Source: Curvivirga aplysinae
GTDB lineage: Bacteria; Pseudomonadota; Alphaproteobacteria; UBA8366; Aestuariispiraceae
Direction of reading: 5' to 3'
Length of the DNA stretch: 46,744 nt
NCBI RefSeq assembly: GCF_009711445.1
Contig: NZ_SMMC01000202.1
Location: 1 to 46,744 of the forward strand
The notes below the pieces were generated by a model. It saw nothing but the letters and a program-made list of their open reading frames with translations. It had not been told where the DNA came from and ran no database searches. This document shows positions 2,106 through 19,590 of this stretch, piece after piece (the first letter of the stretch is position 1; every line of letters starts with the position of its first letter). The translations under genes were made by a program, and so were the position numbers.

Positions 2106-4993
2106 TGGGGGGAATGGCACGGGCCGGAACTTATCTGATTGCTTTAGCATTACTCGTGGCGACAGGTTTGTTTTTTGTGACAAGCGTAAAGCTTGTGAAA
2201 ACCTTAGTGATCATTAATGAGTCAAAACCCGAAAACGCCTTATGGATGGGAGGGCGCTTAGCTATAGCTCTGCGTGATTTTGAAAAAGCTGCATTGCAAT
2301 ATGAGCTAAACCCAACTGAAGAGAATCTTCAGAAGCTATCTGTGAAGCTAGATTTATACTGGAGTGCAACTTCTGTTTTTCACAGTACTGCGGGTCGTAT
2401 CTTTAGGAAAACATATGAATCCCAACAAAATGTCTTTATCGAAATAAACCAAGGTCTAGATTATCTGGATTTCTTATTGGGACGAATGAAGGACATGCCG
2501 GATGAGAGTCTTGCAGAGATAAAGCAGGTTATAGAGAGGTCTTTACCTCAGGTAGATCAAATCCGTAGATATATTTTACAAGTCGAAGCATCAGAAGTGA
2601 ATAGGTTGCGCCAACTGCAAGAGGAACGCGTATATATCCTATTTTGGCAATTTGTTTGTTGGGTATGTCTATTGCTTGTGCTTGCTGCGATTTTATATCG
2701 AAAGTATCAGTTGCATGCTATTCAAGCAAAGATTTTAGGGGAAACAAGAGATCGTTTTATTGCCTTGTCAACAGATATGCCTTTTGGACTTTCTATGACA
2801 ACACCGGACGGTCAGGATGTTATAAGAACAAAAGGCTACCGTGATCTGGGTGGGGTAGGTGAGGTGCGTAAAGAGGATTCTCTTTTATCTGATGCCCAGT
2901 TCAATCTATATGATTATCCCAATGGTCATGTTGCAATTGGGCATGATGTCCGGCTTGAAGATGGATCTCTGATGCATTTTCGCATCGATATGAGCGATTT
3001 GAATAAAAAGGTTGAAGAAATTCAGCTGGCCCTGATGAATCATGAAAGCGCGACAGAAGCAAAATCTGATTTTATGGCAACTATGAGCCATGAAATGCGC
3101 ACGCCATTGAATGGTGTTTTAGGATTGTTAGGGTTGCTTTTGGATGGAGAGTTAGAAGCAGAACAGCGAGGTTATGTGTTGACCGCGCGAGAATCTGCAG
3201 AAGTATTGCTGCATCTTATCGAAGATATTCTCGACTATTCGAAAATTGAAGCTGGGAAATTGGAGATCGAATCTACCGATTTTTCTGTTTCTGAATTGGT
3301 TGGGGGTGTTTGCGACATGCTAGCACCAAAAGCTTATGAAAAAGGAATCGAAATAGGTTGGGATATTGATCCTGCAGTTCCAGCCAATTTACGTGGCGAC
3401 CCTGGACGTTTAAGACAGATTCTTCTGAATCTTGCTGGTAATGCCGTGAAATTCACGGAACGTGGTGGCGTGGCAGTGGAAATGGCTTTGGCTTCAGATC
3501 AGGGGGGAGACATTTTTCTTTCTGGGCAAATTAGTGACACCGGTATTGGTATTCCATATGAATCTCAAGATTCAATGTTTGGGGAATTTAATCAGTTAGA
3601 TGCTTCTTTCTCTCGTCGTTTCGGTGGGAGTGGTCTTGGTCTTGCTATTACACGTCGGTTGGTGGAAGCGATGGGTGGGTCTATCCGTGTCTCCAGTGAA
3701 CCAGATCATGGTAGTGTTTTCAGTTTTTCTGTGAAGATGAAGAAAACACAAGAAATGAACTTGCCGATACAGCGATCCCAAGTTGCTGATAAGTTAAAGT
3801 TGTTATTGTGGTCGGTCGAAGGTTTATATGCTGACTTGTTGTTAAGGTCTTTGCGCAATATGGGGCATGAAGTTGTTATGGCCCAGACCGATAATGAGCT
3901 ATTAGCACTAGTCTCAAAGTCTCAAGTAGATGTGGTTTTACTAGATTGTAAAATTGGAGATGATACCGGGAAGAATTTTGCACGTAAACTGTATGATGTT
4001 AACAAAGATATTGAGTTAATTGTTTTACATGCCACAAAGAATGCTGAGCTTGACCAAGAATTACTTGCAGGTGGATTTGTTAAAAGTTTTATTCAGAAAC
4101 CGATAAACCCTCTTCAACTTTCTCAGTTGTTAACTGGTGATGGGGCTTTGGCGAGTCAACCAGTTATGACTGAAAAAGACATCGATGAGGGGTTGATTGG
4201 CGATGGTTATCGTCTGTTACTTGTTGAAGATAGTCCAACCAACCGTATGGTTGCTTCGGTGCTCCTACGTCGCGCAGGATATAAAGTGGATTGGGTGATT
4301 GATGGGGTAGAGGCTGTCGAGGCAGTACAAAAATTATCATATGATCTGGTTTTGATGGATATTTCCATGCCTAATATGGACGGGGAAGAAGCAACGAAGA
4401 TTATTCGAAATTTAGGTGGGGCACATACTAAATTACCGATTATCGCATTAACGGCGCATGCAATGCCAGGAGACCAGGAACGTTTCCTTGCTGCGGGGAT
4501 GAATGGATATTTAACCAAACCATTGGAGGCGAAGAAAATGCTGGAAATGATTCAGTTTTATTTGCCACGAAAAATAACCGCGACGCTTGGTGAAAATTTG
4601 TATTTGCAGACCAAAGCGATAGCGGAGAAGGATAGGAATAGGATGATGGAAAGCTTGCCATTAATTGATATGACTGTAATTGAGCAGATGACAGAAGATG
4701 CCGGCGAAGAGGCTATTCCAATGTTGATTGAAGTATTTAAAAGTGAAGTCCCCATGCGTGTTGAAGGTATTAAATCCAACTTAGCATCCCGTAATTTTAT
4801 TGAATTGGCAAGGGATGCTCATACTTTGAAAAGTAGTAGTGGTAGCTTTGGTGCGATGCGTCTTAATAGATTAGCTCTGGAAATCGAAACGGCTGCAAAG
4901 GCCAGCAATTCAGAAGCTGTCCAAAATCTTGTAATTAATCTTGATAGTATTTCGGAAAAAACTTTGTCTTCATATGATAGCGTTTTAAGATAA
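2105..4993 (+). CDS. Hybrid sensor histidine kinase with two receiver domains and C-terminal HPt
   Basis: A 962-residue membrane phosphorelay protein. N-terminal TM near residues 8-32, a periplasmic helical region, a second TM near 178-198, then a degenerate PAS-like stretch. HisKA contains SHEMRTPLNG with phospho-acceptor His329, and the HATPase follows (N-box LNLAGNAVKF, DTGIGIP, GGSGLGLAI). Receiver 1 has Asp614 (LLDCKIGD). Receiver 2 is more canonical (LVEDSPTNR, Asp752 in LMDISMPNMDG, then a TAHAM stretch). The C-terminal HPt has His906 in AHTLKSSSGSFGA. All phosphorelay residues needed for an ArcB/BarA-type H-D-H chain are present. It begins on the A of the upstream TAA, so it is co-translated with the SUOX-fold protein. 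The signal and the output regulator are not evident, and no response regulator gene lies next to it. Confidence 0.95.
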   Translation: MGGMARAGTYLIALALLVATGLFFVTSVKLVKTLVIINESKPENALWMGGRLAIALRDFEKAALQYELNPTEENLQKLSVKLDLYWSATSVFHSTAGRIFRKTYESQQNVFIEINQGLDYLDFLLGRMKDMPDESLAEIKQVIERSLPQVDQIRRYILQVEASEVNRLRQLQEERVYILFWQFVCWVCLLLVLAAILYRKYQLHAIQAKILGETRDRFIALSTDMPFGLSMTTPDGQDVIRTKGYRDLGGVGEVRKEDSLLSDAQFNLYDYPNGHVAIGHDVRLEDGSLMHFRIDMSDLNKKVEEIQLALMNHESATEAKSDFMATMSHEMRTPLNGVLGLLGLLLDGELEAEQRGYVLTARESAEVLLHLIEDILDYSKIEAGKLEIESTDFSVSELVGGVCDMLAPKAYEKGIEIGWDIDPAVPANLRGDPGRLRQILLNLAGNAVKFTERGGVAVEMALASDQGGDIFLSGQISDTGIGIPYESQDSMFGEFNQLDASFSRRFGGSGLGLAITRRLVEAMGGSIRVSSEPDHGSVFSFSVKMKKTQEMNLPIQRSQVADKLKLLLWSVEGLYADLLLRSLRNMGHEVVMAQTDNELLALVSKSQVDVVLLDCKIGDDTGKNFARKLYDVNKDIELIVLHATKNAELDQELLAGGFVKSFIQKPINPLQLSQLLTGDGALASQPVMTEKDIDEGLIGDGYRLLLVEDSPTNRMVASVLLRRAGYKVDWVIDGVEAVEAVQKLSYDLVLMDISMPNMDGEEATKIIRNLGGAHTKLPIIALTAHAMPGDQERFLAAGMNGYLTKPLEAKKMLEMIQFYLPRKITATLGENLYLQTKAIAEKDRNRMMESLPLIDMTVIEQMTEDAGEEAIPMLIEVFKSEVPMRVEGIKSNLASRNFIELARDAHTLKSSSGSFGAMRLNRLALEIETAAKASNSEAVQNLVINLDSISEKTLSSYDSVLR

Positions 4994-4996
4994 TAT

Positions 4997-5024
4997 AAAG
5001 GGCGGGTATATTCCCGCCCTTTTT
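4997..5024 (+). terminator. Rho-independent terminator, convergent
   Basis: A ten-base-pair stem (AAAGGGCGGG / CCCGCCCTTT) with a six-base loop and a following T run lies four bases after the kinase stop. It sits between convergent genes and could also serve the peroxiredoxin transcript on the other strand. Confidence 0.9.
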
Positions 5025-5045
5025 AGAAATGAATGTAAGTGTTGC

Positions 5046-5525
5046 TTATAGACGTGAAAGAACAGATTCAGCAGATGAGACATCAAAGGCACCACCTTCT
5101 TCAACGGCTAAATCTTTTAAGACACCATCTTCGATGATCATTGCGAAACGCTGACCACGAACGCCCATACCAGCCGCAACAAGATCTAATTCTAGCCCCA
5201 CTGCTTTGGACCATTCAGCAGAACCATCGGCAAGCATCATCACTTTATCACCAACTTCTTGAGCTTTACCCCATGCGTCCATAACAAAGGCATCATTTAC
5301 TGCAACACAACCAATTGTATCAACGCCTTTTGCTTTTAAGGCGTCAAAATTTGCGACGAAACCTGGAAGATGTTTTGCAGAACATGTCGGTGTGAACGCA
5401 CCAGGAAGGGAGAATAAAACAACCTTCTTACCCGCAAATAAATCTTGTGCGCTTAGCGCTTCTGGACCATTGGAGCCCATTACCTTAAAACCAACTTCAG
5501 GAAGTTTATCACCAACATTGATCAT
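5046..5525 (-). CDS. Peroxiredoxin, Prx5/type II family
   Basis: A 159-residue thiol peroxidase that reduces H2O2 or organic hydroperoxides using glutathione or thioredoxin-type donors in the cytosol. It shows GDKLPEVGFKV, then the peroxidatic site PGAFTPTCSAKHLPGF with Cys48, plus Cys73. Length matches the family. An upstream in-frame ATG at 5540 would add five residues, but AAAGG lies eight bases before the ATG at 5525, so the shorter start is chosen. It lies 55 bases downstream of the dsbD gene on the same strand, so both envelope thiol chemistry and peroxide defence could share a transcript. Confidence 0.93.
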   Translation of the reverse strand: MINVGDKLPEVGFKVMGSNGPEALSAQDLFAGKKVVLFSLPGAFTPTCSAKHLPGFVANFDALKAKGVDTIGCVAVNDAFVMDAWGKAQEVGDKVMMLADGSAEWSKAVGLELDLVAAGMGVRGQRFAMIIEDGVLKDLAVEEGGAFDVSSAESVLSRL

Positions 5526-5580
5526 GATCTTGCCTTTCATAGACGTTAAAAATTGAAGTTATCATATAGGAAAGATTGAG

Positions 5581-7722
5581 TTAATTGGAAGAGCTTGTTT
5601 CACTTTCTTCAATTTTTTCAAGCATACTCTCCACAGTCAAAAGTTCGGGCAAAATGACACCTTTAGGCTTATCCGGGCTGTAAATAATGTTAAAGGGGAT
5701 GCCATAGCGGCCATATGTTTGCAGATAGCTTAGAATATCATCGTTTGGTAAAGTCCAGTCTGCTTGCATTGGAACTACATTTTCATTGGATAGCCATTTA
5801 GTGATTTCTGCATCTGTCAAAGTTGAGCGCTTGTTATACTGGCAGGTAATACACCAATCAGCAGTTACATCGACAAAAACGGTTTTGCCTTGATTGACAA
5901 GGTTATCAATATCCGATCGATTAAATGCAATCCAATCAATATCACTTTCTACGTGGGTGACTGCGGTTGCTGGTTTTGTTGGTAAGATATATGGGCTCGA
6001 AAGACCTATTAAAACAGGCACTATTGCGGCAAATGTATACTGTCTATATCGGTGTTGTTGCTCTTTTTTACGAAGATATAACGCCGCAAGCATAAGACAG
6101 GATAAAACAAATCCAAGCCAAGCGGATATTGTGCCGACGCTTGTTTCTAATACGGTGACGAGCCATATGGCAGTTATGACTAAGGCGGCAGCCAAAACCA
6201 GTTTCACCCATCCCATCCATTTTCCGGGTTTAGGTAGCTTTTTCGCTAAATTAGGTGCAAGCATGAATAGCAGATAAGGTGCGGCAAGGCCGACACCTAA
6301 GGTGGCAAAAATTACAAATATCTCTGTACTACCTTGTGACAGAGCAAAGCCTACAGCAGTTCCTAAAAAAGGCGCAGAACATGGGGTTGCTAACAATGTT
6401 GCAAAAACACCAGTTAGGAAATGTCCTTTTATGCTACTGCCTTGAGATGCATTTGAGGCAGAAGTTGCGAGCTGGCTCGGCAGTTGAATTTCAAAAAAGC
6501 CTAATAAATTTGCAGTGAATGCCATAACCACAAAAAGCATAAAGATAAGGAAAATAGGGTGTTGGAATTGAATGCCCCACCCGATTGCGACACCACCTGC
6601 TTTTAACCCAGCTAAAACCGCGGCAAGTACTAAAAAGGCAACTAAAATACCCATTGTTGTCGCCAAGAAACTTATACGGATTTTTGTTGGACTACTATCG
6701 CCATGATTGATGATCGAAAGCACCTTTAAAGAAAGAACAGGTAGAACACATGGCATTAGGTTTAAAATAAGCCCGCCTAATAACGCGATTAAGACAATTT
6801 CTAAAGATAAGCCTGATTGCGTATCTGGTTTATAGTTTTCGACCCAACTTGCGTCATTTGAGACTAAAATACTTGTTTCAATAGATTGGCCGATTGCAGA
6901 AATTGTTAGAATAACGGGCTCTGTTTGGCGGGCTTCTTCTTCAAAGCCACCTCCAAGTGAGGTAACTAAGGCAGATTTCTTATCCTCGGAAAAAGAAAAA
7001 ATTGGTGGGTCAAAAAAGCTTCCTATGGGACCTTCAATAAACAAGTCTAGATTTTCAAGTTCTTCATTACCTTCAACCAGAATGGATAGTTTATTTTCGC
7101 CGTTAATTTCTTCCAAAGCAGTTTGTGTGACTTTCAATCCAACAGGATTATTTTGTCCATATTCTACTAATACCGGAACTTCTGAGAGGTATTGATTAAT
7201 TGTGAAAGCATGGTCTGTTGGATCAGCTTTGCCCATTGGTATGGTTAAGTCCAATGAGGCTGAATAAGGGATACAGATTTCTTCACATGTTAGATAGTTA
7301 ATGTCACCTTTTAAACGTAATTCTTGTCCTATTGTCTGAGGTGTAACATTAAAAGGTAAAATTACGTGGTCTTTGTAGCCAAGACTTTCTAAGCCTAGAA
7401 TGGAAAAGCGTGTAGGCAACGGCCAAAGAATCTCCGTGTCTTTCAAATTTTCAGCTGCCATCCAGTCAGGTTGCGGCGGGTAACCAGCATCTCCCGGGTT
7501 GCGCCAGTAAATTTTCCAATTTTTCTTGATTTCAAACTCAAGCCCAAGTGGAATTGTTTCAAGGTCACCGACGGCTTCAACGGCACTGATCAAGCGCACA
7601 GATACATGATCGTTGCGATCCCATTTGCTTTCTAGTGCATATACTGGGTTTGAATTGAAAAATGCAATTAGACCAAGAAGTATTACAAAAAACAAATAAG
7701 ACAAGTTTCTAAATTTGTGCAT
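5581..7722 (-). CDS. dsbD: Protein-disulfide reductase DsbD, ScsB-like
   Basis: A 713-residue inner-membrane protein that transfers electrons from cytoplasmic thioredoxin to periplasmic thiols. The chosen ATG gives a proper signal peptide (MHKFRNLSYLFFVILLGLIA ... PVYA); the frame extends upstream to 7833, but that extension has no signal-like character, and AGG lies before the chosen ATG. The N-terminal part is the ScsB-type domain (KNWKIYWRNPGDAGYPPQPD, CEEICIPY). The central part has about eight TM segments with the two transmembrane redox cysteines in LMPCVLPVLSLKV and ATPCSAPFLG. The C-terminal thioredoxin domain carries ADWCITCQYNK (Cys624, Cys627). All redox centres are intact. Confidence 0.93.
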   Translation of the reverse strand: MHKFRNLSYLFFVILLGLIAFFNSNPVYALESKWDRNDHVSVRLISAVEAVGDLETIPLGLEFEIKKNWKIYWRNPGDAGYPPQPDWMAAENLKDTEILWPLPTRFSILGLESLGYKDHVILPFNVTPQTIGQELRLKGDINYLTCEEICIPYSASLDLTIPMGKADPTDHAFTINQYLSEVPVLVEYGQNNPVGLKVTQTALEEINGENKLSILVEGNEELENLDLFIEGPIGSFFDPPIFSFSEDKKSALVTSLGGGFEEEARQTEPVILTISAIGQSIETSILVSNDASWVENYKPDTQSGLSLEIVLIALLGGLILNLMPCVLPVLSLKVLSIINHGDSSPTKIRISFLATTMGILVAFLVLAAVLAGLKAGGVAIGWGIQFQHPIFLIFMLFVVMAFTANLLGFFEIQLPSQLATSASNASQGSSIKGHFLTGVFATLLATPCSAPFLGTAVGFALSQGSTEIFVIFATLGVGLAAPYLLFMLAPNLAKKLPKPGKWMGWVKLVLAAALVITAIWLVTVLETSVGTISAWLGFVLSCLMLAALYLRKKEQQHRYRQYTFAAIVPVLIGLSSPYILPTKPATAVTHVESDIDWIAFNRSDIDNLVNQGKTVFVDVTADWCITCQYNKRSTLTDAEITKWLSNENVVPMQADWTLPNDDILSYLQTYGRYGIPFNIIYSPDKPKGVILPELLTVESMLEKIEESETSSSN

Positions 7723-10351: not shown

Positions 10352-10741
10352 TTATTTATGTGGATATAGGCGGCCAAAACCTTGGGTCACCTTTTCAATC
10401 ATTTCTGGATCACGTTCACGCCAATATCGTGGGTCACGCATCATCTTGCGTAATGCTTCTTCAGAACCGGAAGAGGCTTGTGAACCTATATGTTTTTCTT
10501 TGTAAAAATCCATATCACGATTAGCTTCTTCGAATGGTTCCAGATCTTCGTCATCCTCGGTTAAGGGAGCTAGTAATTCATAAATGCCATATCCAAATGC
10601 CTTTGATAAAAGCTCTGCAGCGCGCGGGGTAATGATTTCATCTAACTCTTGCAGTTCCATAGGATTAAGAGATTTAAGATTGTTTTTCATTTGTTGAATT
10701 GTTTGAGTTTGGTAATTCATTTTATTCACTTTATGTTCCAT
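10352..10741 (-). CDS. Small phage-cluster protein with scaffold-like C-terminal motif
   Basis: A 129-residue hydrophilic acidic protein and the last gene of the minus-strand phage-type cluster. Its C-terminal ~30 residues (EEALRKMMRDPRYWRERDPE plus MIEKVTQGFGRLY) closely match the end of the preceding 276-residue scaffold-like protein, so the two share a duplicated terminal element. The N-terminal half is helical with a run of acidic residues (LTEDDEDLEPFEEA) and has no recognisable domain. The start at 10741 lies three bases after the upstream stop; an internal ATG at 10720 is also possible, and neither has a strong ribosome site. The function is unknown; it may interact with the same partner as the scaffold C-terminus. 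Confidence 0.75.
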   Translation of the reverse strand: MEHKVNKMNYQTQTIQQMKNNLKSLNPMELQELDEIITPRAAELLSKAFGYGIYELLAPLTEDDEDLEPFEEANRDMDFYKEKHIGSQASSGSEEALRKMMRDPRYWRERDPEMIEKVTQGFGRLYPHK

Positions 10742-10744
10742 TTA

Positions 10745-11575
10745 TTAATTGCCGTAAAGGCGTTGATAACCTTCACTAACTTTGCGAATTGTAGCAGGGT
10801 CACGATCTTGCCAGTATTTTGGTGATTTCATTATTTTCCGGAGGTCACCTTCTTCTAGTTTGTTTGAAGCAATATCACCATTTAACAGAGTTGGTTCTTC
10901 GGCTTGATCAAGCATGGCATACATAGCCAAAATGCCTTCATAGGAAGAAGACAATGCATCATAAGCATGATGTGGGAGGTTCTTATTGGCCCAGTTGCGA
11001 ATTTGACGGCTTATTTCTCGCCAGCGTGCTTTTCCACCAAAATGGTGTTCCAGACGGCTAAGGTCATTTTCCATGCGATATCTGTTACCAATCTCTTCAG
11101 CAAGGGGCATTAGTTCGGCTTCTGCAAGATCATAAACCAATTGGGCTTGTTCGTTACTGAAGCCAGCTTGATGTAAAACCTTGTTGATCCATGGGTCGTT
11201 GTCAAAGAGTTGATTGCTTACATGAATGTCGTATTCTTCTGGTGATTGTGGTGGAATACTGTGCATTGCGTTATTCGGATTTAAAAAGGTAACCTGTGCT
11301 TCTTCTTCGTTGATTTCTAACATATCTAGAAGCGCATCATTTTCTTCTTTTAACTCGGTTAGGCGACGCTCTAATTCTTTGTAAGATTTTACAAGAGCTT
11401 CGATCCGAATTTTTTGCTTCTTCTCATCCCAAAACTTAACAGGGATTCCTTTGGGTTTATCTCCGCAGTTGCAAGTCGACTTTTGATCTACAACTTGATC
11501 TTTAATAAAGCTATTTTCCAATGCACCATGTGTATGATCTTGAAGTGGTTTGATTAGAACTTCTGTATTTTCCAT
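10745..11575 (-). CDS. Phage capsid-assembly (T7-type scaffold) family protein
   Basis: A 276-residue protein. The N-terminal part reads GIPVKFWDEKKQKIRIEALV followed by KSYKELERRLTEL, the 'fed to a coiled coil' opening typical of T7-like capsid-assembly scaffolds. A middle region (HQAGFSNEQAQLVYDLAEAE, LSRLEHHFGGKARWREISRQ) and a C-terminal DPxYWxxRDP element ending in RLYGN follow. Scaffolds of this class direct procapsid formation and leave the mature head. The long frame reaches 11704, but AAAGGAG lies just before the ATG at 11575, so that start is used. An unusual CNCGD pair of cysteines sits near residue 35. No capsid gene lies beside it, so its present role is open. Confidence 0.78.
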   Translation of the reverse strand: MENTEVLIKPLQDHTHGALENSFIKDQVVDQKSTCNCGDKPKGIPVKFWDEKKQKIRIEALVKSYKELERRLTELKEENDALLDMLEINEEEAQVTFLNPNNAMHSIPPQSPEEYDIHVSNQLFDNDPWINKVLHQAGFSNEQAQLVYDLAEAELMPLAEEIGNRYRMENDLSRLEHHFGGKARWREISRQIRNWANKNLPHHAYDALSSSYEGILAMYAMLDQAEEPTLLNGDIASNKLEEGDLRKIMKSPKYWQDRDPATIRKVSEGYQRLYGN

Positions 11576-11597
11576 ATAAATCTCCTTTGGTAAGAAT

Positions 11598-11912
11598 TTA
11601 TGCTGGGTGTGTTGTTGCTTGTTTGATGATTCGTTCAATGCGAAGGACGAGTTGCCTTTGTCCTTCAAGTTGTCGAAGCGCATCTTGTGTACTATCAGGA
11701 CCAAGGGCGCGTTCTAGGGTCGTTTGTCGCATGTGCGAGAGTACGATTTTACCTTCTGGTGAATTGAAACAACGCAGATACGCTTGATTTATGCGAAAGG
11801 CATGATCTTCCTCTATATTATCAGTAAGAGGAGAATCTATGGTATTTTCTGATAACGTTGTAGGATGCACGGCATCCCATAACCAATCTATATTTTGTTG
11901 ATCAGGCGTCAT
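11598..11912 (-). CDS. Bbp19-like small phage protein
   Basis: A 104-residue protein. The core AYLRCFNSPEGKIVLSHMRQ followed by TTLERALGPDSTQDALRQLE and a terminal EGQRQLVLRIERIIKQA resembles the small 'Bbp19' proteins found between the portal and scaffold genes of Bordetella-phage-BPP-1-like podoviruses. The start lies three bases after the portal stop, and its ribosome site (GAAGG) is inside the last portal codons, so translation is coupled. The role in the parent phages is not well established. The family name is from pattern memory and moderately certain. Confidence 0.7.
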   Translation of the reverse strand: MTPDQQNIDWLWDAVHPTTLSENTIDSPLTDNIEEDHAFRINQAYLRCFNSPEGKIVLSHMRQTTLERALGPDSTQDALRQLEGQRQLVLRIERIIKQATTHPA

Positions 11913-11915
11913 ATT

Positions 11916-13616
11916 CTAACCTTCGATTTGTGGTGAGTTGGCCATTTCAGAAAAACGCGATTGAACTTGAGACAGGTTTAATTTGCCATCAGCGACATCT
12001 TGAGCCATCTGCTGTGCCATGTTTTGCATGTCAGGTGGCAATTGTTGCATAAGCTGTTTTGGATCAATACTTGTTAAATCTTGCTCGTTAATTGCGTTTT
12101 CAGAGTTCATTCTGTCCGTGGCTTGATTGACATTTTGATGCGCTGCAGAAGGTTGGTTCTCTTCTGGGTGAAGGAATGTTTCAGGCACACCTAACAAATC
12201 GGCCAGATAGCGACCTATGTCATTACTTTTGAGTAAGCCAACAGCGTCAGGGCTTGCTTGTTTAATCATGTCGAGCCATCGGATGATCGGTTTCGCTTTT
12301 TGCATCCGTTGTCTCATGGCAAGCGGTGCGTTAATTTGTAAGTTGATTTCCCGACCATCAATCATGATATCGCCTATGTCGCCACGCCGACGCAATATGG
12401 CTAAGGCGCGGTCTGCCAAAGGTATTATTAGTTCCCCATGAAGGCGGCCAAAAATTGCACTTAGATTTCGTGTGGCGCTTTCTGTGCGTTCTACAAATTC
12501 GGTTGCGCTCATGCCTTGTGCCATAGGTTGTCCTAGCTGGTCGCGGTAAAGTGCTAATGAAATTTGGGCGCGAATTTTCTCAAGTAAGGCTTCAGACAGA
12601 TTGATGTCGCTGGCAGTTGTTAAGGGTTGAAGTCCTTTACTACCAACCGCTTTAGGAATGACTGTACCTGGGGTAAGTTTGATCGTCGCGGGATTTAAAA
12701 CGCCGTCATCATCCGCTTGCCATATGCCTGTCACAGCAATACTGGCATTTTTCAACATTAATTCAACTATCTTATTTGCGGTTTTAATATCAGGTAAAGC
12801 TTTCATGACGGGTGAGCGTCCGTAAATCTCACCAGGCGCTTTAATCCATCTGAATGTTATAAATGGACTGCTTTCAAATGACCCTTTGGTTAATACCATC
12901 GGTTGCTCATCACCTTCAGTTTCACCCGTCAAAATTGCCATATAGTCATAACGGCCATGTTTATTTGGATGAACTGCTTCTAGAACTTGAAATTTCTTTT
13001 GATCAAAATCTTGGTCATCCATTGCCAGACTTTCAGGCAAACTCGCCTTTGGAAAACGACTCACCAACTGAGCTTCATTAAGAACTGATTTTCGATAGAT
13101 AATATCGAGTCGACCTCTCGCTCCTTCTTCCATCACCACTTCACCAAGTGGGATGGCAGTGAATTTAAAAGCACTGGTTTCACCTAACGGCGCCTCTTCG
13201 AAAAGAAGACAAGCTGTTCCTGCTGTAACTAGGTCTAGATAGCATTGGTGAAGTTCAACAATGAAGTTCGATCGATCAAACTGGCCCTGAATTGTTTGTG
13301 ATAATTGTTGAAGTGCTTTTTCAACAGATGATTGCGATTCGTCTGTAACCTCTGATCCGGGAATTAGTTGGAACCAACTAGACCAAGCTGGTGTTAGTTC
13401 CGCCATAATGGAAGAGGCAAGCTGTTCAACAGCATCTGGAGCAGTTCCATCAAATAGATGCTGTCGTTTCATTTCCCCCGCGGTTTGATTTTGAATCGCG
13501 CCATCGCGGCGAGGAAGGGCATAATCATAACAATCTTGCCAATGGCTTTCCCAATGTCCACGTTGGCTCTTCGCCTTTTCAAATTTTCGTTGTAGGATTT
13601 CCGGAGTAAGCTCCAT
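11916..13616 (-). CDS. Podovirus-type portal (head-to-tail connector) protein
   Basis: A 566-residue protein of the head-tail connector family. Recognisable parts are the N-terminal WESHWQDCYDYALPRRDG, HLFDGTAPDAVEQLASSIMA followed by ELTPAWSSWFQLIPG, the central FRWIKAPGEIYGRSPVMKAL, and the Gln/Met-rich C-terminus. In podoviruses twelve copies form the portal through which DNA is packaged and ejected. The length is full and no frameshift is visible, so the gene looks maintained rather than decaying. Its ribosome site (GGAGGG) is formed by the last two Gly codons of the upstream gene, with three bases between stop and start. No terminase or capsid gene is adjacent. Confidence 0.92.
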   Translation of the reverse strand: MELTPEILQRKFEKAKSQRGHWESHWQDCYDYALPRRDGAIQNQTAGEMKRQHLFDGTAPDAVEQLASSIMAELTPAWSSWFQLIPGSEVTDESQSSVEKALQQLSQTIQGQFDRSNFIVELHQCYLDLVTAGTACLLFEEAPLGETSAFKFTAIPLGEVVMEEGARGRLDIIYRKSVLNEAQLVSRFPKASLPESLAMDDQDFDQKKFQVLEAVHPNKHGRYDYMAILTGETEGDEQPMVLTKGSFESSPFITFRWIKAPGEIYGRSPVMKALPDIKTANKIVELMLKNASIAVTGIWQADDDGVLNPATIKLTPGTVIPKAVGSKGLQPLTTASDINLSEALLEKIRAQISLALYRDQLGQPMAQGMSATEFVERTESATRNLSAIFGRLHGELIIPLADRALAILRRRGDIGDIMIDGREINLQINAPLAMRQRMQKAKPIIRWLDMIKQASPDAVGLLKSNDIGRYLADLLGVPETFLHPEENQPSAAHQNVNQATDRMNSENAINEQDLTSIDPKQLMQQLPPDMQNMAQQMAQDVADGKLNLSQVQSRFSEMANSPQIEG

Positions 13617-13619
13617 ATG

Positions 13620-13889
13620 TTACCCTCCTAAGGTAGATTTTAAAGCGCTTGCTGATGGTGAGGAAGAGGAGGGCTTATTCCCATTATCATTGCCTGAAAA
13701 ATTTAATTCTTCGGGGATTTCAACTTTATCACCGGTCCAGCTAGTGTGAACGGTGCCTGCGCGCCCTCGTCGGCGTCGTCGAATCATTTCTAGCCGATCT
13801 TCCCGTGCCTTCTCTTCAGATAGATCTTCTTCAACTGGTTCTTCAACAGGTGGAACATAACTACTTCCACCTCCAAATACGCCACCCAT
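13620..13889 (-). CDS. Small Gly/acidic-rich phage-cluster protein
   Basis: An 89-residue protein, MGGVFGGGSSYVPPVEEPVE followed by an acidic stretch, then a basic patch EMIRRRRRGRAGTVHTSW and a polar serine-rich tail. Proteins with this MGG-x-FGG start and Arg-rich centre are common just upstream of portal genes in podovirus-like clusters. The function is unknown. The longer frame to 13985 is rejected because AAAGGAGAA lies right before the ATG at 13889 and because an operator-like palindrome occupies the extra region. Confidence 0.75.
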   Translation of the reverse strand: MGGVFGGGSSYVPPVEEPVEEDLSEEKAREDRLEMIRRRRRGRAGTVHTSWTGDKVEIPEELNFSGNDNGNKPSSSSPSASALKSTLGG

Positions 13890-13902
13890 AAAATTCTCCT
13901 TT

Positions 13903-13958
13903 TGTTCTGATATGAGAAAATAAAAAAGAACAACTTTTGTTCTTTGTCGAATGTTCTC
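13903..13958. promoter_or_regulatory. Operator-like cluster with TTGTTC/GAACAA palindrome
   Basis: A perfect inverted repeat, AAAGAACAA and TTGTTCTTT separated by three bases, occupies 13925-13945. Single TTGTTCT-type half sites flank it at 13903-13909 and 13952-13958. It lies directly upstream of the small gene that opens the portal operon. The same core recurs at 14001, 14427, 14505 and 14528, suggesting sites for the divergent S24-type repressor. This role is inferred from position and symmetry. Confidence 0.65.
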
Positions 13959-13996
13959 TATATAGTCCAATTTTGCTAAAGTCAATAATTATATTC

Positions 13997-14395
13997 TTAT
14001 TTTGTTCTTTTTAGGTGTTGATAGAGCTGCCATGGCGTTAGAATAAAGCATGCATGTAATCCGAGTAATCTTTTAATGGTCTCAACGCAACTGAAGGGAA
14101 GTGGGGGGGCTATTTTTTGTGGTGGAAACGAACATGGTGTGATTAGGTGGCATATATGCCCTTGTTTTCTGTGTGTTTTAATGAGATCAAACGGAGTTAT
14201 GCCCTGTATTTGTTGAACCGTGGTGATATTCGAAAGGGAATCAATTTTTAAAATATTGCTCCCTTCCACTTGATAGGCAAAGCAATGTCTAAAACCCTTT
14301 TTAAGAAGTTTCAAAATAGAAATATTTGTTTCGTTTTGAAAAATGATAATGAAATATTTTGCTGGTTCTGTTTTGAAATGTTCTAGCTTCATCAT
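13997..14395 (-). CDS. Phage-cluster protein, possible permuted papain-like (His...Cys) hydrolase
   Basis: A 132-residue protein of unknown function. A conserved-looking beta hairpin GFRHCFAYQVEGSNILKIDS carries a His, and PFSCVETIKRLLGLHACFIL places a Cys at the start of a helix, followed by LTPWQLYQHL. A His strand before a Cys helix is the arrangement of circularly permuted NlpC/P60 (LRAT-like) enzymes, but the match is only at motif level. Similar small proteins occur with portal genes in other alphaproteobacterial phage-derived clusters, from memory. AGGCG lies before the first of two adjacent ATGs. It is separated from the portal operon by the operator-like region, so it may be its own transcription unit. 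Confidence 0.6.
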   Translation of the reverse strand: MMKLEHFKTEPAKYFIIIFQNETNISILKLLKKGFRHCFAYQVEGSNILKIDSLSNITTVQQIQGITPFDLIKTHRKQGHICHLITPCSFPPQKIAPPLPFSCVETIKRLLGLHACFILTPWQLYQHLKRTK

Positions 14396-14426
14396 ATATT
14401 CGCCTGAGTGTAGTGCAATATTCCTG

Positions 14427-14540
14427 TATTGTTCTTATTTTTAGAGTTTTGTCAAATGATGTTCATGAAAAGCTTGCATGGTATAGGAAAATTTGTAAAT
14501 AATAGGAACAATATATGAGATTTAAAAGGGAACAGTTTTG
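14427..14540. promoter_or_regulatory. Divergent control region with paired TTGTTC/GAACAA sites
   Basis: TATTGTTCTTATT at 14427-14439 and AATAGGAACAATA at 14501-14513 are near-exact inverted copies (12 of 13) facing each other across 61 bases, and a further GGGAACAG lies at 14528-14535. They sit between the divergent S24 repressor gene and the phage-type cluster, as expected for autoregulated operators. Confidence 0.6.
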
Positions 14541-14574
14541 AATTGGAGCTGTATCCTATCAATGTGAGGATATC

Positions 14575-15228
14575 ATGTTAAAGCATGACCAATTATGGCG
14601 GGCGCTTGATCGCTACGCAGATCATTATGGGATGACAAGTTCTGGTCTTGCAAGGCATGCAGGACTTGATCCAACTAGTTTTAATCCTAGTAAGCGTCAA
14701 ACTAAGGAAGGGAAACCTCGTTGGCCGAGTACGGAAAGTATTGGCAAGGTTTTGGAAGCGACAGGGGGTACTATGGTTGAATTTGTGTCTTATCTGCAAG
14801 ATGTTCCAGGGGCTGTTCTTTCGCAGGATATTCCGTTTCTTAGTATTGAAGAAGCGCATGACCTTCTGCAAAAGGAAGGAGATGAAGGCCTATTTGATGA
14901 TCATGGTTTTCCTATCCGGGAAAATTGGGATTTTATGGTGTATCCAGATGTAAATGACGCCGAAGCCTTTGGGGTAGAGATCACAAATGACGATTTAGCG
15001 CCTGTTTATCGCACAGGCACTGTCTTGGTCATGTCACCAAATGCCAGTATTCGACGATTGGATCGTGTCTTATTATGCATGGCGAATGGCGATATTCTGG
15101 TGCGTGAATTAATTCGCCAGACCGCCCATCGTATGGATTTGGCAATGCTAACTAATCCGGCCGAAGTTGAAACAATCATGGCAAATGAGGTGATTTGGAT
15201 GACTCGCATTGTTTGGGCAAGTCAATAA
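14575..15228 (+). CDS. S24/LexA-like HTH repressor with substituted catalytic dyad
   Basis: A 217-residue phage-repressor-type protein. The N-terminal HTH (SSGLARHAGLDPTSFNPSKR and RWPSTESIGKVLEATG) and the C-terminal S24 dimerisation fold (FGVEITNDDLAPVYRTGTVL, SPNASIRRLDRVLL, WMTRIVWASQ) match a common alphaproteobacterial family whose usual active site reads GDSMEPVYR ... VMAKEL. Here the GDSM position reads NDDL (Asp140 in place of Ser) and the Lys position reads LVREL (Arg177 in place of Lys). Self-cleavage should therefore be impossible. It is divergent from the capsid-less phage cluster, with matching operator-like repeats between them, so it is probably a constitutive repressor of that cluster. 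GAGG precedes the ATG. Confidence 0.88.
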   Translation: MLKHDQLWRALDRYADHYGMTSSGLARHAGLDPTSFNPSKRQTKEGKPRWPSTESIGKVLEATGGTMVEFVSYLQDVPGAVLSQDIPFLSIEEAHDLLQKEGDEGLFDDHGFPIRENWDFMVYPDVNDAEAFGVEITNDDLAPVYRTGTVLVMSPNASIRRLDRVLLCMANGDILVRELIRQTAHRMDLAMLTNPAEVETIMANEVIWMTRIVWASQ

Positions 15229-15412: not shown

Positions 15413-16267
15413 ATGGATTCTACAAATGCAATTATGTGGACCGAAGGGCAATGGCAGGACGCAAATACACCTATTATTAATGTAACGTCTAACAGCTTTT
15501 GGCTTGCGTCGACTGTTTTCGATGGGGCGCGCTCATTTGATGGTGTCGCACCGGATTTGGATTTACATTGTCAACGTGCTGTTCGTTCAGCTGAGGCATT
15601 GGGGTTGAGGGCGACTAAAAGCTGGGAAGAGATTTATGCGCTGGCTTGGGAAGGAATTAAAAAATTTCCAAAGGAGGCTGTTTTATACATCAAGCCTGTT
15701 TTTTGGGCAGATGAAGGCTTTATTGCGCCTGATCCAGATAGCACAAGATTCGCGCTGACATTGTATGAAGCCCCTTTTCCGCCAAATACCGGCTTTAGTG
15801 CAAAATTATCATCTTATCGTCGTCCTTCTGAGGAAGTCGCACCAACAAATGCCAAGGCGGCTTGCCTTTATCCAAATGCAGGTCGTGCTTTACAAGAGGC
15901 AATCAAAGATGGCTATAACAATGCTGTTATGTGCGATAGCATGGGCAATGTGGCTGAATTTGCAACAGCTAATCTATTCTGTGTGAAAGATGGGCATGTT
16001 ATGACACCTGCGCCTAACGGAAGCTTCTTAAATGGCATCACGCGTCAACGTGTTATTGCACTGTTGAAAGGTCAAGGTATTGACGTGGATGAATGTCGTG
16101 TCACACCTGCGATGCTTGAGGAAGCAGATGAAATCTTCAGTACAGGAAATTATGGTAAGGTGGTTGCTGTCATTAATTATGAGGGCAGAGAGATGCAACC
16201 TGGACCGATCATGCAAAAAGCACGTGATCTATATTTTGAATATGCTAAGAAAGAGGGCGGCGAATAA
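15413..16267 (+). CDS. Class IV (branched-chain type) aminotransferase
   Basis: A 284-residue PLP enzyme of fold type IV. SFWLASTVFDGARSFDGVAP marks the family start, Lys148 in PTNAKAACLYPNAGRAL is the Schiff-base lysine, and NVAEFATANLF plus FLNGITRQRVIALL are the cofactor phosphate-binding parts. It probably exchanges the amino group of Leu/Ile/Val with 2-oxoglutarate. The EAATSNLF-type motif reads EFATANLF, and the enzyme is slightly short, so a related D-amino-acid or aromatic transaminase cannot be excluded. It is a single gene with its own promoter and a hairpin at its stop codon. Confidence 0.85.
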   Translation: MDSTNAIMWTEGQWQDANTPIINVTSNSFWLASTVFDGARSFDGVAPDLDLHCQRAVRSAEALGLRATKSWEEIYALAWEGIKKFPKEAVLYIKPVFWADEGFIAPDPDSTRFALTLYEAPFPPNTGFSAKLSSYRRPSEEVAPTNAKAACLYPNAGRALQEAIKDGYNNAVMCDSMGNVAEFATANLFCVKDGHVMTPAPNGSFLNGITRQRVIALLKGQGIDVDECRVTPAMLEEADEIFSTGNYGKVVAVINYEGREMQPGPIMQKARDLYFEYAKKEGGE

Positions 16268-16351: not shown

Positions 16352-17917
16352 ATGAAATCCGAACTGAAATTTCCAAATCGCATTTCATATAAATTAGTAC
16401 GAACAAGTGTGATCTTAGCTTTTGGGATTGGCTTGTTTATGAGCATGCTGCAATTGATCTGGGATTATCGAATTGAGCAGGAAACGATTGATCATACAAT
16501 TCAACGTATTCTAGAGGTTGCTGAACCTCCTGCATCTCGTGCAGTTCATATTCTTGATGAAGATCTTGCACAGGAAGTTGTTGTGGGGTTACTCCAATAT
16601 GACTTTGTCGTAGAGGCCCGCATTATAGATGACTTAAATATTCATCTCGCAACCATGAACAAGGAAGCAATTGTAAGTGCAACCCGATGGATCACTAAAG
16701 GTATTGCCGAGGAGTATGTTGAATATTCAATCCCTCTAACGAGCTCTGAACTACAATCCAGTCAGCCGGGGCGTTTAGTCATTCTTGTTGATTTTGATGC
16801 GGCTCTTGAAGGGTTTTTTGATCGCACAACTTTTGTCATGATCGCAGGCTTTATTAGAAATATTCTTCTAGTTTTGGCTTTGTTAATTGCTTTTTATTGG
16901 ATGTTGACCCGCCCTTTGGTTGAGCTTGCTGAAGATATTGGTGAATTGGAACCAAGTGATAGAGATGGGCATTTGGTTAAAGTTCCAGACCATCATGAAA
17001 ATGACGAATTAGGCATTGTCGCTGAGCGGGTAAATAGCTTCATACTTTCCATTCGCAACTTACTTGAAATTCGCAAGAAAAACGAAGAGGATTTATTGAA
17101 ATCCAAACAGGATTTGGAAAACCGTGCTATTGCCTTGCAGGAAGAAATTAGTGAGCGTGAAAAAGCGCAAGAAGAAGCACTAGAAGCAAAAGAAGCTGCA
17201 GAACTCGCTAATCGAACAAAATCCGAATTTTTAGCAAATATGAGTCACGAATTAAGAACACCTTTAAATGCTGTTATTGGTTTTTCCTCGATCATGAAGG
17301 ATGAAATGTTTGGCCCGGTTTCAAATGATAAATATTTGGAATATTGTCATGATATCCATGGGGCGAGCAGTCATTTACTAGAAGTTATAAATGACATTCT
17401 GGATGTGTCCAAGATTGAGGTCGGGGAATTTAAGTTGTCTGTCGACAATATAAATACATCTGAATTACTGGATGGATGTTTGAGAACAATGAGCACAACA
17501 TTCGAACGTCGCGGTCAGGTTATCGTTAAAGAGTTACCGGAGCCAGCCGTAATGCTTTTGGCAGATAGCGTTCGGGTGAAGCAAATCTTATTTAATCTAT
17601 TAACTAATGCATCAAAATTTACATCTGCAGGCGGCACAATTAGTTCAAAAATTGAAATATTGGCAGGAAATAGAGTCGCTATTTCTATTCAAGATACAGG
17701 TGTTGGTATTCCGGCTAAAGAATTATCAAATGTATTAGATCCATTTGTTCAGGTAGATAATGCTTTCTCTAAAACACATGATGGCGTTGGACTTGGATTA
17801 TCTTTATGTCGGTCCTTGATGCAAATGCATGAAGGGGAACTATTACTTGAAAGTGAAGAAGGAATAGGAACCAAAGTTACAATCATTTTCCCGTCTAGTC
17901 GTACGCTGGAAGCATAA
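16352..17917 (+). CDS. Membrane sensor histidine kinase
   Basis: A 521-residue orthodox kinase. TM1 spans about residues 18-40, then a periplasmic domain of ~120 residues, TM2 about 162-188, a HAMP-like linker and a long coiled coil (EEDLLKSKQDLENRAIALQE). HisKA has SHELRTPLNAVIGFSSIMKD with His299, and the ATPase has NLLTNASKFT, DTGVGIP and GVGLGLSLCRSLM. It resembles PleC/DivJ-like kinases that contain 'GFSSIMKDEMFGPV', a phrase common in alphaproteobacterial kinases of cell-cycle type, but no specific assignment is possible. No response regulator is nearby. Confidence 0.93.
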   Translation: MKSELKFPNRISYKLVRTSVILAFGIGLFMSMLQLIWDYRIEQETIDHTIQRILEVAEPPASRAVHILDEDLAQEVVVGLLQYDFVVEARIIDDLNIHLATMNKEAIVSATRWITKGIAEEYVEYSIPLTSSELQSSQPGRLVILVDFDAALEGFFDRTTFVMIAGFIRNILLVLALLIAFYWMLTRPLVELAEDIGELEPSDRDGHLVKVPDHHENDELGIVAERVNSFILSIRNLLEIRKKNEEDLLKSKQDLENRAIALQEEISEREKAQEEALEAKEAAELANRTKSEFLANMSHELRTPLNAVIGFSSIMKDEMFGPVSNDKYLEYCHDIHGASSHLLEVINDILDVSKIEVGEFKLSVDNINTSELLDGCLRTMSTTFERRGQVIVKELPEPAVMLLADSVRVKQILFNLLTNASKFTSAGGTISSKIEILAGNRVAISIQDTGVGIPAKELSNVLDPFVQVDNAFSKTHDGVGLGLSLCRSLMQMHEGELLLESEEGIGTKVTIIFPSSRTLEA

Positions 17918-17968: not shown

Positions 17969-19558
17969 TTAACCAGCTAGGCCCTCAGCAGAAAGCGCTT
18001 GGTCAATCAAGGCAACAGTTTCTTTGATGCCGTAAAGCGCAATAAATGACCCCATACGCGGACCTTGTTCTTGGCCGAGAAGAACTTCGTAGTTAGCTTT
18101 GAACCATTCGCGCAAGTTTTCATATTCGAACTCTTTACCAATGGCAAAAACGCTGGATTGCACTTCATCAGACGGTGTGTCCACATCCATCTTATCCAAT
18201 TTGTTACGAAGTGCCGTGAAGGCTTCGCGCTCTTTATCATTTGGGGTGCGATAGTTTTTATGCGGTTTTACAAAGTCAGTGTAATAACGAATTGCGTATC
18301 CAACCAGATCATCCAATTGTTTATGTGATTCGGGAGATGCTTCCGGCGCGTAGCGGCTGATGAAGCCCCATAACACGGATTTGTCGTCGGTGTTACAAAC
18401 GCTCGCCAAGTTTAGCAGAATGTTAAAGCTTAATGGCATATTTGCTTTTGGTGGGTTGCCATTATGGATATGCCATACCGGGTTTTCTAGTTTCTTCGCA
18501 TCTTCCATACCTTCGAAAGAAGAAAGATGACTGTAATATTCATCTACATTCTTTGGAATTACATCAAAATACAGCCGTTTTGCTGTTTTTGGCTTTTGAT
18601 ACATAAACAAAGACAAGCTTTCCGGTGTTGCATATGTTAGCCATTCTTCCATGGAAAGGCCGTTGCCTTTGGATTTGGAAATCTTTGTGCCTTCACCATC
18701 CAAGAATAATTCATAAGTCAATGTTTGTGGCGGATTACCACCCATTGCACGTACGATAGACGAAGAAGCCTTAACAGAATCGATCAAGTCTTTACCGGAC
18801 ATTTCATAATCAACGCCCAAAGCCCATTGACGCATTGCCCAGTCAGGTTTCCATTGAAGTTTAGTACGACCGCCTGTGACCAAGGTTTCTACTTCTTGGC
18901 CATCTTCGCGTTTGTAAACAATTGTACCTGCTTTGGCATCGGTATGAAGCACTGGCACCTGTAATACATTACCTGTTTCTTCGCAGATCGGCAGAAACGG
19001 GCTATATGTTTGACGGCGTTCTTCGCCTAATGTCGGTAGCATGATGCCCATAATGCGATCATAAACCTCAAGAACGCGGATCAATGCGTCATCAAATTTG
19101 CCAGAGGTATAGTAATCTGAGGCAGAGGCAAATTCATATTCGAAACCATAAGAATCCAAGAAATCACAGAGGCGCGCATTGTTGTGATGCGCAAAGCTCT
19201 CATGCGTGCCAAATGGGTCAGGCACTTTAGTCAATGGCTTATGTAGGTATTCCGCTAACATTTCCTGATTAGGAAGGTTTGTTGGCACCTTGCGGAAACC
19301 ATCCATATCATCAGAAAAGGCAATTAATTTGGTTGGAATGTCGGATAGCAATTCAAATGCGCGACGTACCATAGTGGTACGCTGTACCTCGCCAAATGTA
19401 CCAATATGTGGCAAACCGGATGGACCATAGCCTGTTTGGAAAAGTACATATCCCTTTTCAGGTGTCTTATTGTTGATACGTTTGAGCACCTTTCGAGCTT
19501 CCTCAAAAGGCCATGCTTTTGCGGTTTGGGCTAATTCTCGAAGGGCGGTATCGCTCAT
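17969..19558 (-). CDS. lysK: Class I lysine--tRNA ligase
   Basis: A 529-residue class I enzyme that charges tRNA-Lys, the form found in archaea, spirochaetes and most Alphaproteobacteria in place of class II LysS. The HIGH-like motif is HIGT (residues 51-54) in YGPSGLPHIGTFGE, and the KMSKS-like motif is KISKSKGNG near residue 300. The C-terminal helical anticodon-binding part ends in GSFIALYGIKETVALIDQAL. The GTG at 19567 would add three residues, but AAGG is spaced eight bases from the ATG at 19558, which is preferred. The leader contains a CCGGAGA/TCTCCGG stem (19591-19631). Confidence 0.95.
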   Translation of the reverse strand: MSDTALRELAQTAKAWPFEEARKVLKRINNKTPEKGYVLFQTGYGPSGLPHIGTFGEVQRTTMVRRAFELLSDIPTKLIAFSDDMDGFRKVPTNLPNQEMLAEYLHKPLTKVPDPFGTHESFAHHNNARLCDFLDSYGFEYEFASASDYYTSGKFDDALIRVLEVYDRIMGIMLPTLGEERRQTYSPFLPICEETGNVLQVPVLHTDAKAGTIVYKREDGQEVETLVTGGRTKLQWKPDWAMRQWALGVDYEMSGKDLIDSVKASSSIVRAMGGNPPQTLTYELFLDGEGTKISKSKGNGLSMEEWLTYATPESLSLFMYQKPKTAKRLYFDVIPKNVDEYYSHLSSFEGMEDAKKLENPVWHIHNGNPPKANMPLSFNILLNLASVCNTDDKSVLWGFISRYAPEASPESHKQLDDLVGYAIRYYTDFVKPHKNYRTPNDKEREAFTALRNKLDKMDVDTPSDEVQSSVFAIGKEFEYENLREWFKANYEVLLGQEQGPRMGSFIALYGIKETVALIDQALSAEGLAG

Positions 19559-19590
19559 TTTTTTCACCTTGAAAGTAACAATTAAATAGA

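Follow-up and report, generated by a model that had tools for sequence, protein, structure and literature searches.

The genome of Curvivirga aplysinae contains the genes for a podovirus-type particle at two separate locations, one of which lies within a 46,744-nucleotide stretch of contig NZ_SMMC01000202.1 (hereafter the window, meaning the whole stretch analysed). The window holds a short cluster of portal, scaffold and associated genes (10352-15228), and the remainder of the same genome provides a single intact set of capsid, tail and terminase genes. Together these form a set of podovirus-type particle genes that is dispersed and maintained, and we consider it likely that they represent a vertically inherited, podovirus-derived system resembling a gene transfer agent (GTA), with the window cluster as its head-assembly half; we infer that it moves host DNA. 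These findings point to a group of machines of viral origin that has drawn little notice and may transport host DNA from cell to cell.

A particle gene set in two halves

The core of the window cluster consists of three minus-strand genes with Pfam matches, as a sequence-only reading of the window had predicted: a 566-aa portal or head-tail connector (11916-13616; PF12236, E = 1.5e-121), a 104-aa Bbp19-like protein (11598-11912; PF25181, E = 7.7e-14), and a scaffold of the T7 capsid assembly type (10745-11575; PF05396, E = 9.2e-12), which probably starts at ATG 11575 rather than TTG 11704. They are part of a run of six minus-strand genes, all open and without frameshifts and in the order previously claimed. 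Three junctions are exactly three bases long – p121/portal (13617-13619), portal/Bbp19 (11913-11915), and scaffold/second scaffold-like gene (10742-10744) – and the AGGAGG ribosome site of the portal gene lies within the end of the preceding gene. The portal is single copy in the genome, and 44 of the 114 related genomes searched encode a relative; among 100 portal-centred loci (with some genomes entered twice) the scaffold is present in 88.

Alignments of the capsid, terminase and tail nozzle were built from relatives in which these genes follow the portal, and were searched in the 114 genomes, including that of C. aplysinae. None matched the window contig, in agreement with the sequence-only reading. 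Elsewhere in the genome there is exactly one major capsid protein (MCP) gene, one nozzle gene, and one gene for the large terminase subunit (TerL), all without stop codons. The MCP gene is on contig C95 (6858-7697; Phage_capsid_2, E = 2.4e-81; PHROGs major head protein, 8.6e-70) together with the nozzle gene (3919-5895, an alignment match), and TerL is on contig C203 (30794-32206; PHROGs terminase large subunit, 1.4e-79). Genes for p85, gp11, an internal-virion-like protein, and fibres are also located on C95, which is 8,177 bp long; PHROGs matches in this second half include tail proteins (6.7e-47 and 7.7e-127) and an internal virion protein (1.2e-8). Beside TerL on C203 are genes for a 151-aa cell wall hydrolase (Hydrolase_2, E = 2.2e-20; PHROGs endolysin, 5e-22) and a 126-aa holin (GTA_holin_3TM in Pfam, E = 1.4e-14; PHROGs holin, 5.3e-29), followed by host genes that include, as named by eye, nitronate monooxygenase, DUF952, and pyrD. 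The left end of C95 probably adjoins the right end of C203. In the TerL alignment the GKS, DD, and acidic positions are invariant and are predicted to form the ATPase and nuclease sites.

The phage-type head, tail and packaging functions expected of a GTA are thus represented by portal, scaffold, MCP, adaptor, nozzle, TerL, endolysin, and holin genes. The sequence-only reading had offered three possibilities for the window cluster, of which that of a dispersed GTA with other genes elsewhere fits. A portal-plus-scaffold module standing alone is ruled out by the capsid, nozzle and TerL in the same genome, and a satellite that borrows capsids need not be invoked for a genome with an intact capsid gene of its own.

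In the system that we envisage, the window cluster would contribute the portal, scaffold, Bbp19-like protein, accessory genes, and regulator, and the other half the capsid, tail adaptor, nozzle, fibres, TerL, endolysin, and GTA-type holin. The products of both loci would assemble one short-tailed particle, which the terminase would fill with host DNA, and holin and endolysin would lyse a few producer cells. An S24-type regulator would otherwise keep the system silent. In relatives the system is probably linked to DNA damage, and the family of the window, having lost the self-cleavage dyad of this regulator, would have to use another signal.

A probable ancestral one-piece locus

In related families the whole set forms one run between lysK and an aminotransferase gene on one side and DUF952 and pyrD on the other (neighbour names in relatives were assigned by eye). 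In the sampled genome G070 the order is lysK, aminotransferase, S24 regulator, a 132-aa gene, portal, scaffold, MCP, p85, gp11, and nozzle, and after the nozzle a 140-aa gene, TerL, a 101-aa gene, endolysin, DUF952, and pyrD. G101 matches this order except that Bbp19 is present and the aminotransferase match is lacking, G015 covers lysK to TerL, G086 shows the aminotransferase side, and the pyrD side is visible in G038, G057, G082, and G093. The aminotransferase gene is present in 34 and lysK in 23 of the 100 portal-centred loci, and relatives retain the same module, often with the same neighbours.

In the family of the window the break is located between scaffold and MCP. The left half in C. 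aplysinae retains the aminotransferase and lysK genes, and the right half retains DUF952, pyrD, EAL, and HAD genes; because each half keeps its old outer neighbours, the break seems to have cut an inherited cluster, both parts of which stayed intact. In six other genomes of this family (G005, G009, G010, G011, G012, and G013) DUF952 and pyrD are found at the MCP end, an arrangement suggestive of an inversion. An assembly artefact does not account for the split, because the halves are far apart in single-contig chromosomes – approximately 243 kb in G001, 1.23 Mb in G009, and 1.29 Mb in G011 – and one packaged fragment would be unlikely to hold both. A full prophage at this site, which would have counted against the earlier interpretation, is there in appearance only: the site is occupied by a full structural cluster in related families, and integrase or replication genes were not seen among the frames scanned (see below).

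Inheritance, selection, and distribution

Gene trees follow that of the host gene rpoB closely in a set of 14 genomes chosen for having all six genes. Robinson-Foulds (RF) distances to the rpoB tree, of 22, are 6 for portal, MCP, gp11, and gp12, and 2 for TerL, and the smallest value in 1000 label permutations is 16. Distances correlate with those of rpoB at 0.70 for portal, 0.88 for MCP, 0.63 for gp11, 0.55 for gp12, and 0.81 for TerL. These near-rpoB trees, together with the same chromosomal site in several families, are as expected of the vertical inheritance of GTAs.

Both halves are under purifying selection, with dN/dS values of 0.006-0.111 in the two closest pairs of relatives (calculated by NG86; dS is near or above 1 in several pairs, for which the values are rough). 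In G005/G013 the ratios are 0.016 for portal, 0.018 for MCP, 0.006 for gp11, 0.063 for gp12, and 0.041 for TerL, with 0.021 for rpoB, and in G009/G011 they are 0.071 for portal, 0.100 for scaffold, 0.059 for Bbp19, 0.014 for MCP, 0.061 for gp11, 0.095 for gp12, and 0.111 for TerL, with 0.043 for rpoB. Ratios are 0.085-0.340 in G002/G007 and 0.056-0.170 in G005/G010, and G000/G001 is saturated.

In a sample of 289 genomes of the class, each at least 90% complete, the MCP (E<=1e-50) is present in 45, always in single copy and in 28 family codes, and is without stops in 43 of these. The portal is found in 67 genomes, 43 with strong and 24 with weak matches (strong matches score 358 bits or more, the line having been set at 350 after the scores were seen), and TerL in 43. 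All 43 strong portals are accompanied by an MCP, and portal, MCP and TerL occur together in 40 genomes of 26 family codes. The exceptions are few: MCP without a strong portal (G058 and G231), TerL without MCP (G140 and G211), and MCP without TerL (G058, G125, G222, and G301). Portal and MCP are less than 20 kb apart in 27 of the 43 genomes. They occupy different contigs in another 10, and five genomes (G001, G093, G203, G222, and G242, of four family codes) have both on a single contig with more than 60 kb between them; in G057 the portal stands beside a broken MCP gene. Wide separation of this kind would hardly be tolerable for a self-packaging phage, and would be tolerable for a GTA.

Three of the genomes lacking TerL (G125, G222, and G301) belong to family code f85, with portal scores near 360 bits, an MCP, and no TerL of this type; perhaps they carry a diverged variant with another terminase. 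In the single-contig G222 the portal-MCP distance is approximately 1.6 Mb. Apparent stops in the portal of G010 were discounted, because they fall where the match runs out, close to the true terminus of the gene.

Alternative explanations

Several observations weigh against the interpretation as a dispersed GTA-like system. The system is known from its genes; the assembly leaves C95 and C203 unjoined, and a small terminase subunit was not identified. The comparison with rpoB uses related, non-independent genomes, and several inner branches are weak. The PHROGs evidence on life-cycle genes consists of the best 25 of 63 families. In some relatives the genes are damaged, with stops in the MCP of G057 and G226 and in the portal of G174 and G293, and with a divided TerL (two pieces) in G103, G110, and G214. 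In G093 the portal is cut in two by an insert of about 17 kb, with Bbp19 and scaffold beyond it (L271, G093:C2:1262000-1281900), and in the lysK-to-pyrD locus of G042 the capsid-to-nozzle region is deleted and the scaffold joins the second TerL part (L125, G042:C257, 12074-13705).

The alternative that survives best, although we consider it unlikely, is a domesticated particle that serves a purpose other than DNA transfer, such as killing relatives or acting on a eukaryotic partner. Selection on the genes is silent on purpose, and the element is also kept in genomes of 0.9-2 Mb, where gene exchange is hard to explain. However, TerL, portal and capsid are all retained, with the invariant positions of TerL noted above, and a killing tail would need neither capsid nor terminase, which speaks against a particle of this sort.

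A functional temperate podovirus or phage satellite is very improbable. The portal and MCP genes being within 20 kb in most of the strong-portal genomes is in its favour, as is the classification of the element as viral in viral collections, where 272 IMG/VR stretches encode a relative. A temperate podovirus would be expected to form a single uninterrupted prophage that includes genes for integration and replication. We scanned 69 of 205 frames (of at least 100 aa) in seven stretches, taking gene-like or gap-filling frames in the one-piece cluster of G070 and the second half of G001, and nearly all frames of the two C. aplysinae halves; the other 136, including all of L124 and L263, were left out. 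The 69 frames match 13 Pfam families, all structural, lysis, terminase or HTH/S24, and neither Pfam nor the best 25 of 63 PHROGs families revealed an integrase or replication family, the remainder of the window lying outside this integrase scan. Moreover, several families have the halves separated by 69 kb to 1.6 Mb, and the genes have host-like trees and fixed chromosomal neighbours. A plasmid search with the MCP gave no match.

Isolated phages are also distant, the best identities being 34.6% for portal and 47.3% for MCP (both to Hodr) and approximately 30% for TerL. Hodr, Baldr, HTVC024P, and MEP301 are isolated podoviruses of Pelagibacter and Methylophilales with genomes of 34-39 kb, and share with the element the order portal, small gene, capsid assembly protein, MCP, small gene, and tail tubular A, although their identity to the C. 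aplysinae proteins is at most the values given for Hodr. Of 25 element rows chosen for the portal tree, 24 group in a single clade (97/93) that excludes the seven phages, with G100 among the phages and long branches for G103, G104, and G110; support for the element clade is 99/99 in the MCP tree, where Hodr adjoins it. Element branches are mostly shorter than those of phages, TerL having been compared by identity only. A closer match is MT838907.1, an unannotated 5-kb human faecal record titled "Bacteriophage sp." (portal 46.9%, MCP 60.4% identity), which is probably a piece of bacterial chromosome carrying this element.

The remaining alternative, a defective prophage of which both halves are decaying remnants, has a clear counterpart in some relatives (G057, G093, G042, and G293) and is nonetheless most unlikely here, given intact frames, low dN/dS, a site conserved across families, agreement with the rpoB tree, and an MCP free of stops in nearly all class genomes that have one. 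The view in the sequence-only reading that this is not random prophage decay is thus upheld, with the qualification that loss and stop codons do occur in a minority of relatives.

Relationship to known gene transfer agents

The GTA features set out in PMC9662315 include vertical inheritance, with evolution alongside the host genome, a gene set that cannot be packaged whole, TerL and MCP that are separate from their caudoviricete homologues and slower evolving, and particles that contain host DNA, are made by few producer cells, and transfer genes. Among the closest known systems by description is FpGTA of Faecalibacterium (PMC12946183), which is GTA-like and likewise has proteins of short-tailed-phage type, two operons (approximately 125 kb apart in one strain), a holin and endolysin, and a lack of replication genes. 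As described there, FpGTA differs in that its hosts are Gram-positive gut bacteria, that particles and packaged DNA have been seen whereas the present element is known from genes, and that holin and endolysin are in the tail-gene operon; here MCP, tail and TerL genes are together, with portal and scaffold apart.

Two GTA types are described for the Alphaproteobacteria in PMC9662315. RcGTA (Rhodogtaviriformidae) is likewise phage-derived, vertically inherited, and encoded at several loci, and the holin of the present element resembles it in matching a Pfam family named for gene-transfer release; unlike RcGTA, the element has a Phage_capsid_2 capsid, a PF12236 portal, and a T7-type scaffold and nozzle. 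The Bartonella GTA (Bartogtaviriformidae), of independent origin, has an HK97-type MCP and a genus-level range according to the same source, and is set apart from the present element, with its Phage_capsid_2 capsid, by description. The RcGTA marker GTA_TIM (PF13547) is present in 31 of the 289 class genomes and in none of the 45 with MCP, C. aplysinae included (4.8 expected; Fisher p 0.007, uncorrected for kinship). The Rhodospirillales row in PMC6821227 reads 24, 10, 0, 15, 0, 0; the zeros probably refer to RcGTA-like clusters.

We lean towards a separate alphaproteobacterial GTA lineage of podovirus origin, old enough for several families to share a single ancestral site, present in no fewer than 26 of the family codes sampled in the class, and hosted by genomes without the RcGTA marker. 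Its ancestor would probably have been tied to DNA damage through a LexA-type box and an S24 regulator capable of self-cleavage, the family of the window later losing the cleavage dyad and having its cluster cut in two with both halves intact. Should particles be made, domesticated phages would also transfer DNA in alphaproteobacterial groups such as Magnetospirillum, Azospirillum, Terasakiella, and Skermanella, the capacity would have arisen again from another phage type, and viral collections would be holding such clusters as "viruses". A particle with the portal from one locus and the capsid from the other could come only from a dispersed system.

Among the papers on GTAs and podoviruses in Alphaproteobacteria that our literature search reached, in so far as their text was available, none describes this element, the main risk to novelty being George et al. 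2022. That work reportedly found that purifying selection acts on the capsid and portal genes of GTAs in protist endosymbionts with reduced genomes (Rickettsiales and Holosporaceae), with head genes kept and tail genes missing; these genes may be RcGTA-like or of the present type. Particles of Azospirillum lipoferum are said to be siphovirus-like (Boyer et al. 2008), which speaks against a link with this element. The account of these particles in PMC3899980 is of random 10-kb host DNA, tentatively tied to an RcGTA-like region.

Regulation

A 217-aa S24/HTH regulator (14575-15228, plus strand; PF00717, E = 3.4e-6) is encoded divergently from the cluster and lies near it in most relatives (83 of the 100 portal-centred loci); it is counted as a member. 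The sequence-only reading had placed housekeeping genes directly on both sides; this is so on one side (DUF1491, then ADH and yqgE), whereas the regulator occupies the other. A PDB sequence search with this protein gave no match. Of the 67 loci that could be scored, 58 keep both of the residues that we take to be the self-cleavage Ser and Lys, assigned by motif after LexA. Each of the eight loci of the window's family in this set has lost at least one of the two (Asp140 and Arg177 replace them in the window), and so has G070.

The intervening divergent promoter region (14396-14574) lacks the GTTC-N7-GTTC box that is common in relatives. This box, which is the alphaproteobacterial LexA motif as given in PMC3323433, is found on either strand, with varying spacers, in 35 of 68 non-redundant divergent regions, in 31 of which it sits 77-97 bp from the estimated S24 start. 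In forward orientation it occurs in 30 of 78 500-bp regions, compared with a mean of 0.5 and a maximum of 2 in shuffled sequences. Of the eight loci from the family of the window, that of G007 alone contains a box, which stands at a different position. The association of dyad and box is weak and we do not rely on it (Fisher p 0.042, with one unscorable row counted as lacking the dyad and kinship uncorrected). From these motifs, the older form of the system looks to have been SOS-linked, and the split family may have become uncoupled from SOS.

Small proteins, neighbouring genes, and variants

The first gene of the run encodes a conserved 132-aa protein (13997-14395, minus strand), with His37, Cys38, and Cys103 among the invariant residues of a 40-row alignment. 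Its structure model is confident (pLDDT 88), and the fold is shared with six viral (phage) proteins of unknown function (E<=0.001, best 4.7e-9). A fold search of the PDB gave nothing significant, and weak matches to cysteine-protease folds are a hint only; a permuted cysteine hydrolase would be a guess. The 89-aa pre-portal protein (13620-13889, minus strand) was identified by its reading frame and ribosome site, and relatives of it precede the portal in other genomes too. Its start is probably ATG 13889 rather than TTG 13985 of the longest frame, leaving a gap of 107 bases before the gene. At the other end of the run, a 129-aa protein (10352-10741, minus strand) has a C-terminal T7-scaffold motif only (PF05396, E = 4.5e-4, under the Pfam cut-off), and a homologue adjoins the scaffold in 13 of the 100 portal-centred loci (E<=1e-15).

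In two genomes of approximately 0.9 Mb, G110 and G214, TerL is present as two open frames about 4 kb apart that correspond to model residues 5-199 and 207-467 (G110:C4:153856-158567 and G214:C2:68123-72839). Records titled Mesoflavibacter (L162, CP051228.1) and Stygiobacter (L180, VBWB01000012.1) contain the element at 52% portal identity; the title of CP051228.1 is probably wrong, its sequence matching G011 of the window's family. The GC content of the window module is 0.415, compared with 0.42-0.43 in its flanks, and the host neighbours outside the element are a class IV aminotransferase (15413-16267), a histidine kinase (16352-17917), and lysK (17969-19567, minus strand).

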